From Candidatus Daviesbacteria bacterium (GTDB taxonomy: Bacteria > Patescibacteriota > Microgenomatia > Daviesbacterales > UBA10151), in NCBI GenBank assembly GCA_021731695.1, contig JAKFWZ010000030.1, positions 1 through 47,346 of the forward strand: DNA of 47,346 bases, read 5' to 3'. A program made the translations under genes and the position numbers. The notes under the pieces are model-generated. The model was given only the letters and a program-made list of their open reading frames with translations. It was not told where the DNA came from and did no database searches. Positions within the stretch are counted from its first letter, which is position 1, and each line of letters starts with the position of its first letter. Shown one piece after another: positions 545-6,277 of the stretch.

Positions 545-1191
545 TCTCGCCCTTCAAACATTTCTTTCCTAATTATCTCCTCCATTATTTTATGACCCTC
601 TGAGTTCGGATGAATTCCGTCTTCCAGTAGTTGATTTAGATTCATTCCCCTCATTCTTTCGTATAAATCGATAAAGGGCGTTTCGCGGGATTTACAAAAA
701 TTCCTCAGAATATCATTATATTTTTCAATAACTTCATTTGAATAAATCTTATCGGGCTCCCAATTAACAGGATTTGAGAATGCCTCATTTACCGGAGTTA
801 GGCCTATAAATGCCACATCTGCCGTATATTTTTTAGCAATTTCCCAAAGGTCCCAAAGATTTTGTTCGTATACTCCGGGTTCAGTTTCATATTGCTTTGC
901 CTTTTGGTAATAACGGGTATCATTTATGCCGATTGCAAAAATTATCACAGTCAGCTCATCAGGGTTAAAGCGCGGAATCATTTCTGATTCAAATCTCTCG
1001 AGCAAACCCGCTGAGGTATCACCCGGAATTCCTAAGTTGTAAGTTAAAGTGTAATATTTTGAATATAACTCGTTTGCTGTATAAGCTGCTAAAGATTTAC
1101 TGTCCAGGTTTTTCCTGAGTCTCCCGACCCATCCGCCTTCAGCGTCCCAGTTGCCGTATGTAATTGAATCTCCAAAACAAAATAAAGTCAT
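541..1191 (-). CDS. SGNH/GDSL-type hydrolase
   Basis: N-terminal FCFGDSITYG (GDS block), FAIGINDT block and C-terminal DGIHPNSEGH (DxxH). Confidence 0.88.
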   Translation of the reverse strand: MTLFCFGDSITYGNWDAEGGWVGRLRKNLDSKSLAAYTANELYSKYYTLTYNLGIPGDTSAGLLERFESEMIPRFNPDELTVIIFAIGINDTRYYQKAKQYETEPGVYEQNLWDLWEIAKKYTADVAFIGLTPVNEAFSNPVNWEPDKIYSNEVIEKYNDILRNFCKSRETPFIDLYERMRGMNLNQLLEDGIHPNSEGHKIMEEIIRKEMFEGRD

Positions 1192-1412
1192 TTTAATTTT
1201 TTTAATTGATCTTCCGAAATTTTAGCTTGGGTAATAATTTGTTTTAAAGTTCCTGTTGGAATTGGTCCCGGGTGAACTGCGACTTGTGTCCATTTGCCAT
1301 CCGGGTGAGCTAAACGAATATGACTGCCTTTCCCCTTCCCCTGAACAAATCCCAGTTTTTCCAGGAATTTAATCATCCTCTGCGGCTTGATATTCCTCGG
1401 TAACCTGGTCAT
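1188..1412 (-). CDS. hicA: HicA-family mRNA interferase toxin
   Basis: 74 aa, KFLEKLGFVQGKGKGSHIRLAHPDG...VAVHPG.IPTGTLKQIITQAKIS; typical YcfA/HicA pattern. Confidence 0.85.
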   Translation of the reverse strand: MTRLPRNIKPQRMIKFLEKLGFVQGKGKGSHIRLAHPDGKWTQVAVHPGPIPTGTLKQIITQAKISEDQLKKLK

Positions 1413-1414
1413 GT

Positions 1415-1681
1415 TTAAATGATAACTGCACCTTCGGGAGCTTTAATTTGAGTGGATGTAATCATTTGTCCCTCCAGTTGGTCAGCTGGAACTTCTCTGC
1501 CTTCTTCGATGAGACATTCAATAGCCAATTCCATACCATCTTTTAAGCTTTTTAAAGCAGCTTCTATTGAATCTCCCCAATCAGCAACTCCTAAAGTCGG
1601 ACAATAAGCATTGTAAACAGTTTTTCTGCCAATTTTTTCCGGTTCAATAATAATTCTGTAATTTAAAATTTGAGCTTGCAT
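1415..1681 (-). CDS. hicB: HicB-like antitoxin (short form without obvious DNA-binding domain)
   Basis: 88 aa, YNAYCPTLGVADWGDSIEAALKSLKDGMELAIE; directly upstream of hicA on the same strand. Confidence 0.8.
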   Translation of the reverse strand: MQAQILNYRIIIEPEKIGRKTVYNAYCPTLGVADWGDSIEAALKSLKDGMELAIECLIEEGREVPADQLEGQMITSTQIKAPEGAVII

Positions 1682-5391: not shown

Positions 5392-6027
5392 TTAAGCGGG
5401 AACCTTCATTCTTTGTAATCTTTGGTTGATGTGACCCAAAACTTTTATAACTAAACCTCTGTCCTCAGATCTTAAAGGGGATCTACTCATTTCCATTACT
5501 CTACCTGGGAAAGTAAAACCAAATCCATTTTCCCCCTTGTCCACATTCGCCCTTTGATCATTCAGCCATTCTCTGGCTTCAAACACACCGGTTTCATCAA
5601 ATCCTACCACTAAAGGCTTCATCGGATCGCCCCTTCTTCTTATCTCCAGTCTGGTTCCGTAGTCTACGCCATTAAACTGAGGGCGTCTTACCAGATGCGC
5701 CGACTCCACCTCTTCAACACCATCTAAGCCATCAGGGTTTGCAAAAACTTCCAGTTTCTCGGTCTCGATTTTGAGCCCACCAACTTCTTCCTGAACTCTA
5801 GTCCTCCCAAGATATAAACCTTCCCCAGAAATCGTAGTACTAACAGAATGGTCAATTAACTCAACAGCCCGCTGCTCAAGCTCTTTAATTTCAGTCAAAT
5901 CAGTGCCTTCAGCCTGCTTTGATCGATGACCATTTGCCCAAAGTTCGGCCCTAAAACCAGTCTTTTCCTCGTTGAAATATCTTTCGATATCTCTTATTAA
6001 GAGATCAGAATTTTCTTTTTCAGCCAT
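5392..6027 (-). CDS. hypothetical protein, predicted target of a SAM-clan riboswitch
   Basis: ORF 211 aa; no recognised family; ATG follows a hairpin plus T-tract. Confidence 0.7.
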   Translation of the reverse strand: MAEKENSDLLIRDIERYFNEEKTGFRAELWANGHRSKQAEGTDLTEIKELEQRAVELIDHSVSTTISGEGLYLGRTRVQEEVGGLKIETEKLEVFANPDGLDGVEEVESAHLVRRPQFNGVDYGTRLEIRRRGDPMKPLVVGFDETGVFEAREWLNDQRANVDKGENGFGFTFPGRVMEMSRSPLRSEDRGLVIKVLGHINQRLQRMKVPA

Positions 6028-6240
6028 AAAAAATCCCCTCCATTAGGAGAGGACATCAGAAAAAAATTCAGATTAATTTGCTCGAATATTCGAACCAAAT
6101 CCTCTCCCTTGCGGGATTTGGGTTTGGCACCGTGTCAGTTATTCAAAAGGTCCTTCGCATTCGCTCAGGACGATCTCGTATAACTCGATCGGTTGCCGGA
6201 TGGATTAACGAGCCAAAACTCTACCCATCACTCTTGATTT
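6028..6240 (-). promoter_or_regulatory. SAM-I clan (S-box / SAM-I-IV-like) riboswitch with transcription terminator
   Basis: Minus strand: P1 AAATC/GATTT, AAGAGTG, P2 GATGG...CCATC, CCGGCAACC, GGTGCCAAACCC, AGAGGATTT; possible pseudoknot TTTGG/CCAAA; GGAGAGGA in P1 3' side pairs with TCCTCTCC of the terminator; TCCTCTCC-TAAT-GGAGGGGA-TTTTTT immediately before ATG. Confidence 0.8.
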
Positions 6241-6250
6241 CTTTTGTTAT

Positions 6251-6277
6251 CTTATAAAAAGATTGAGAAAATGTCAA
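6251..6277 (-). promoter_or_regulatory. sigma70-like promoter of the riboswitch transcript
   Basis: Minus strand TTGACA-ttttctcaatctttt-TATAAG(AT) just upstream of the aptamer. Confidence 0.55.

Follow-up and report, generated by a model that had tools for sequence, protein, structure and literature searches.

A leader on the minus strand of the analysed window, a stretch of 47,346 nucleotides from an uncultured, ultra-small Candidatus Daviesbacteria bacterium, very likely is a SAM-I riboswitch with OFF logic by attenuation that controls a 211-aa gene. This reading is built on homology, base pairing, covariation, competing helices and the syntenic replacement of the gene by methionine genes. 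Class and mechanism of the leader are ordinary. The value of the finding lies in its target, in an exchangeable cargo slot and in a natural k-turn variant. The elements of the leader and its target are located as follows:

6277-6272 and 6256-6251 (-): promoter-like site TTGACA/TATAAG, from the sequence, spacer 15
6243-6028 (-): whole switch from aptamer start through terminator, SAM-I (S-box) with a transcription-terminator platform
6094-6243 (-): SAM-I (S-box) aptamer, by RF00162 match and lineage covariance model
6236-6240 (-): P1 5' strand AAATC, partner 6101-6097
6097-6101 (-): P1 3' strand GATTT, partner 6236-6240
6199-6229 (-): P2, made up of P2a, internal loop and P2b
6229-6225/6203-6199 (-): P2a, GATGG/CCATC, by pairing
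6221-6219/6212-6210 (-): P2b, GAG/CTC, by pairing
inside 6199-6229 (-): k-turn-like internal loop of P2, GUA/GUUAAU
6213-6216 (-): pseudoknot 5' strand UUGG in L2, pairing with CCAA 6121-6118
6118-6121 (-): pseudoknot 3' strand CCAA in J3/4, pairing with UUGG 6216-6213
6126-6197 (-): P3, stems 6197-6191/6131-6126, its loop holding a 51-nt lineage-specific insertion
6106-6115 (-): P4, CCC-GCAA-GGG, 3 bp, forming in this sequence and with a counterpart in relatives
6100-6107 (-): antiterminator 5' strand GGAGAGGA, overlapping P4 and P1
6080-6095 (-): P5 hairpin 3' of P1, stems 6095-6090/6085-6080, from the predicted fold
6046-6053 (-): antiterminator 3' strand and terminator 5' arm, TCCTCTCC
6028-6052 (-): intrinsic terminator CCTCTCC-TAAT-GGAGGGG-A-T6, -15.0 kcal/mol, an arrangement that recurs in relatives
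6041-6035 (-): terminator 3' arm and Shine-Dalgarno sequence, GGAGGGG
5392-6027 (-): 211-aa target gene, family-less (no Pfam, NCBIfam or PHROG match), with the codon usage of known genes

The promoter, P1, P2a/P2b, core motifs and terminator named in a first-pass annotation were all located. The core motifs AAGAG, CGGCAACC and GGTGCC are present, and P1 to P4 all form when the leader is folded from its own sequence. Absent from that annotation were the L2-J3/4 pseudoknot, the P5 hairpin (6095-6080) and the 51-nt insertion in P3. At the equivalent place in the sister species, TTGACA-N15-TATAAA was found with matching spacing, and TTGACA-like sites precede the leader in many relatives.

The SAM-clan identity proposed by the annotation was confirmed with RF00162 (SAM-I), the best model of the clan, which matched 6243-6094 with 30.8 bits (E 4.1e-5 in a search against the whole Rfam) and thus fell under its curated gathering cut-off of 44.4 bits. 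At gathering cut-offs, no Rfam family passed in the window. According to the alignment, the low score is mainly due to the 51-nt P3 insertion and additionally to some weak pairs in P1 and P4. A lineage covariance model (R1) built from 15 relatives, with this leader excluded, gave 89 bits (E 1.4e-25) for the leader and E 0.5 for the runner-up site of the window. The fold of the leader was more stable than 200 out of 200 shuffles (z = -4.0).

Covariation was analysed in 25 homologues, as composites of core pieces with the P3 and P4 loops removed. In this set, 97.0% of the pair cells were paired compared to 87.8% after shuffling and 25-41% after sliding. Both sides changed in 13 of 24 pairs, compared to 7.2 in shuffles (0/500 reached this value), and the covariation score was 0.306 vs. 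0.128. P1 to P3 covary, P2a and P2b almost throughout. The L2-J3/4 pseudoknot was paired in 100% of its cells with two of four pairs covarying, and occurs as UUGG/CCAA, CUGG/CCAG, CUCG/CGAG and CUAG/CUAG. The core nucleotides AUC/GAU of P1, AAGAG, GCAACC and GGUGC, which we take to be the SAM-contacting positions of the SAM-I riboswitch, are unchanged here and nearly invariant among the homologues. Since the pseudoknot and the split into P2a and P2b are present, the element goes with SAM-I and not with SAM-I/IV, a variant of which had been considered at first. Judged by its sequence, the leader is very probably a real SAM-I riboswitch, a known class, and is predicted to be very likely functional.

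The 8-bp switch helix described earlier, GGAGAGGA/TCCTCTCC, is formed by Watson-Crick pairs at eight of eight positions and was extended to nine paired bases with -15.3 kcal/mol in a duplex prediction. The terminator hairpin (-15.0 kcal/mol) runs into six U. As TCCTCTCC is used by both, the two helices are mutually exclusive, which agrees with the terminator logic of the first-pass annotation. For a transcript that has not yet reached the 3' arm of the terminator, the antiterminator fold came to -64.0 vs. -56.3 kcal/mol for the aptamer fold, both without SAM or pseudoknot energy. In the full-length leader, the two folds were nearly equal with -72.8 (antiterminator) and -71.3 kcal/mol (aptamer). 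These modelled energies fit an OFF switch under kinetic control, where the missing stability would come from SAM. In a control with all relatives, the duplex energy averaged -7.0 vs. -5.8 with shuffled arms, a modest gain. The switch helix is strong in this leader, but as a feature of every homologue it is less secure and not proven.

Transcription would start adjoining the aptamer. When SAM is scarce, GGAGAGGA on the 3' side of P4/P1 would pair with TCCTCTCC as antiterminator and break the terminator. The 211-aa gene would then be transcribed, and GGAGGGG would be accessible to the ribosome as its binding site. SAM bound between P1 and P3 would keep P1 closed and leave TCCTCTCC free for GGAGGGG; the terminator would form and its U-run would stop transcription. 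In read-through messages, the Shine-Dalgarno sequence would be locked inside the hairpin. SAM binding, the direction of the switch and the gating of translation are what we infer for this leader. Translation may be gated too since the terminator arm GGAGGGG is the only Shine-Dalgarno sequence before the target ATG. This role had been recognised before, though with a gap of 6 nt, while 7 nt were counted from GGGG to ATG. Judged by the anatomy, the proposed dual gating of transcription and translation is plausible. Most relatives have a similar hairpin and U-run immediately 5' of the first start codon. Several of them, as here, lack a separate Shine-Dalgarno sequence, and others carry AAGGAGGTG downstream. 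Thus, termination appears to be the common denominator and masking of the Shine-Dalgarno sequence an optional addition.

The P2 internal loop indeed has no canonical k-turn, as noted before. In a standard SAM-I k-turn, 1b.1n is G.A and 2b.2n is A.G, whereas the leader has A.A and A.U; the 3-nt bulge is in place. Among the 25 aligned sequences, six have U at 2n, and in five of these it is accompanied by A at 1b; none of the 19 sequences lacking U at 2n has A at 1b (Fisher p 1.1e-4 for sequences counted without phylogenetic correction). A sixth A at 1b is present in relative G030, whose P2 has an inserted hairpin and was read by eye. More leaders with U at 2n, from outside this alignment, retain G at 1b. 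Five other Daviesbacteria share the k-turn change in otherwise intact leaders. Alternatively, G-U and U-A pairs could lengthen P2a so that the helix continues and a 1x4 loop is left. In relatives G033 and G040, an A lies opposite G at the neighbouring k-turn position, which favours the k-turn-like reading over the 1x4 loop. The altered k-turn can serve as a natural experiment on the departures from the standard turn that are tolerated in a SAM-I riboswitch.

An inserted hairpin such as ACGCTAAAGCTTCG, with variable arms, recurs in P2 of the SAM-I leader in several genomes (L027, L034, L047, L032, L041 and L049). Palindromes similar to CCTGAGNGAANNCGAAGG were seen in P3 or in the P5 hairpin of many leaders (window 6170-6151, L008, L013, L027, L028 and L127). 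The P3 palindrome was considered as a dispersed repeat, but this was rejected given just one other copy, with one mismatch, in its own genome.

The 211-aa ORF is clearly a real coding gene. Its codon log-likelihood of 0.228 per codon resembles the one of the long genes of the window, while the other frames are at approx. 0, and the chance of such an open frame is about 3e-6. It ends 3 bases from a convergent VanW gene and is thus alone in its transcription unit. The target had been called uncharacterised, and this still holds: the protein has no match in Pfam, NCBIfam, PHROGs or PDB sequences, no homologue in 190 related genomes, GTDB contigs or viral contigs, and its AlphaFold model (pLDDT 54) has no significant fold match in the PDB. 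With the orphan protein of relative G031 it forms a reciprocal-best but weak pair (E 0.02 and 0.008, approx. 4,050 ORFs), which is unsupported by a two-sequence profile. Sequence comparison established no membership in the cargo families described below. As there is no established homologue, it cannot be demonstrated that leader and target are conserved together. The first-pass annotation had proposed to look for the leader upstream of target orthologues; no orthologue was found, while the SAM-I leader is kept at the same site in relatives.

In many Daviesbacteria, this site has the order LigT-family gene (divergent), SAM-I leader, cargo, VanW-like gene (convergent) and gene of a solute-binding protein; gene names were taken from Pfam for this window and read from the sequence in the other genomes. 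According to Pfam, the cargo is MTHFR in G007, the catalytic domain of cobalamin-independent methionine synthase (MetE) in G010, G012 and G031, a Cys/Met PLP enzyme (cystathionine-synthase-like) in G024, G030 and G038, and homocysteine S-methyltransferase in G039. Methyltransferases are also among the cargo (Pfam). Genes of adenosylhomocysteinase and a PfkB kinase adjoin the slot in several relatives. The earlier statement that the switch controls a target other than the usual Met/Cys/SAM genes holds for the gene itself, but in relatives such genes do follow the leader at this site. Most likely, the leader is a SAM-responsive OFF switch for a methionine/SAM-related protein of no recognised family, and we infer a role for the 211-aa protein in the supply of methionine/SAM or in its reactions.

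In other Daviesbacteria, a small orphan protein is the sole cargo. Six of these orphans form family A2, which a profile detected in seven of 45 genomes (loci L099:1711-2145, L100:4371-4688 and L101:1471-1863, with counterparts in G015, G026, G044 and G041). In all seven, A2 sits behind a SAM-I leader, one of which (G041) is truncated. The A2-type proteins (105-145 aa) have no database match and were seen in Daviesbacteria only immediately 3' of a SAM-I leader; AlphaFold gave a poor model for orphan family A (pLDDT 49). In G041 (L112 1200-2000 (-)), the leader has lost its 5' half (P1/P2) but its terminator is kept, as is the family-A orphan gene, which is either decay or an assembly error. In the sister species G001, of the same genus, the orthologous leader also has the k-turn change, has a comparably extended P3 and precedes a 145-aa family member. 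Two further, very similar SAM-I leaders of G001 precede a SAM-hydrolase-like cargo gene, with a weak match to the C-domain of SAM hydroxide adenosyltransferase (21.5 bits at a cut-off of 25.5). These leaders of G001 were noted at L033/L099 1395-2477 and L053 77-1086. If this match holds, a SAM-degrading enzyme repressed by SAM would be puzzling.

At E <= 0.1, RF00162 had matches in 59 of the 190 relatives, of which only 12 exceeded the cut-off; in the phylum as a whole, 81 of 384 genomes matched at E <= 1e-4. The lineage model matched 27 of the 45 genomes of the family, the weaker matches including SAM-I/IV leaders of metK. Many SAM-I leaders of CPR/Patescibacteria are therefore below the Rfam cut-off and overlooked by routine annotation; SAM riboswitches of this group are apparently undescribed in the literature searched. 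In sister genomes, slot leaders match RF00162 and the metK leaders tested mostly match RF01725 (SAM-I/IV). Judged by these matches, the two classes seem to be divided in Daviesbacteria, with SAM-I/IV placed before metK and SAM-I at the cargo slot. At L036, L042, L046, L048, L050, L051, L084, L085, L087 and L089 of sister genomes, metK follows compact leaders of the SAM clan whose P2 is plain; a new SAM-I form was considered for them and dropped, as Rfam gives SAM-I/IV for most of those tested. In the 1.45-Mb assembly of the own genome, this leader is the only RF00162 match, metK has no recognisable leader, two adenosylhomocysteinase genes are present and MetE was not found. Elsewhere in the window, genes of a HicA toxin and a HicB-like antitoxin (1188-1681 (-)) adjoin a GDSL lipase gene.

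Control could be mainly translational, with a hairpin that hides the Shine-Dalgarno sequence and is a poor terminator. GGAGGGG as both 3' arm and only Shine-Dalgarno sequence 7 nt 5' of ATG, a layout common to several relatives, would suit this explanation. It is nevertheless unlikely given the strong hairpin (-15.0 kcal/mol) that runs into six U. Furthermore, many relatives have the same hairpin and U-run but a separate downstream Shine-Dalgarno sequence, and there the hairpin must work by termination. It is quite improbable that the leader is a decaying relic of an ancestor's methionine-gene switch whose altered k-turn and P3 insertion weaken SAM binding. The low Rfam score, the non-standard k-turn, a genome without MetE and the truncated copy in G041 point in this direction. 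However, all helices are intact, as are the pseudoknot and the core, the k-turn change recurs in five other genomes above otherwise intact leaders, and the switch helix (-15.3 kcal/mol) is the strongest of the whole set. U at 2n is also compatible with SAM binding: in the k-turn section of PMC3651934, a SAM-I riboswitch with G2nU,G3nU bound SAM with a Kd of 1.95 uM by ITC, while changes of A1n abolished binding.

Concerning the class, a SAM-I/IV or SAM-IV riboswitch is very improbable. The P5-like hairpin after P1 and the non-canonical k-turn would agree with it, but RF00162 is the best-scoring clan model in Rfam and the leader has both P4 and the L2-J3/4 pseudoknot, which contradicts the definitions given in PMC6890682. 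That the aptamer senses another ligand, e.g. S-adenosylhomocysteine, is hardly credible: an AdoHcyase gene adjoins the slot in several relatives, yet the SAM-I core nucleotides are unaltered and the targets of the homologues are typical of SAM-I.

Beyond the SAM-I attenuator itself, we tentatively propose a wider reading whose chances we put below even. The slot might harbour small proteins of Daviesbacteria that evolve fast and have not been described before: the 211-aa protein, the family found in seven further genomes and another small family. They would be under SAM control and act in methionine/SAM supply or turnover. The leader would also contain a natural k-turn in which A.A at 1b.1n functions only when 2n is U. 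The syntenic slot connects orphan proteins of uncultured bacteria with SAM/methionine, which is a testable hint at their function.

Compared to known systems, the leader shares with SAM-I (RF00162) P1 to P4, a divided P2 with an internal turn, the L2-J3/4 pseudoknot, the core nucleotides and the terminator/antiterminator platform. It deviates by the 51-nt P3 insertion, a 3-bp P4, the altered k-turn, a score below the gathering cut-off and an orphan target. With SAM-I/IV (RF01725), it has the SAM-clan core and the P5-like hairpin 3' of P1 in common. However, SAM-I/IV has an undivided P2 and no L2-J3/4 pseudoknot and SAM-IV (RF00634) has no P4 (PMC6890682), whereas the leader has a divided P2, the pseudoknot and P4 (CCC-GCAA-GGG). 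Among the engineered SAM-I k-turn variants, the section of PMC3651934 reports no change at 1b, while the leader has A.A at 1b.1n. Natural k-turns with U at 2n are represented by Kt-23 in PMC4316175: the ribosomal Kt-23, a natural non-standard k-turn, has U at 2n facing A at 2b, as does the leader.
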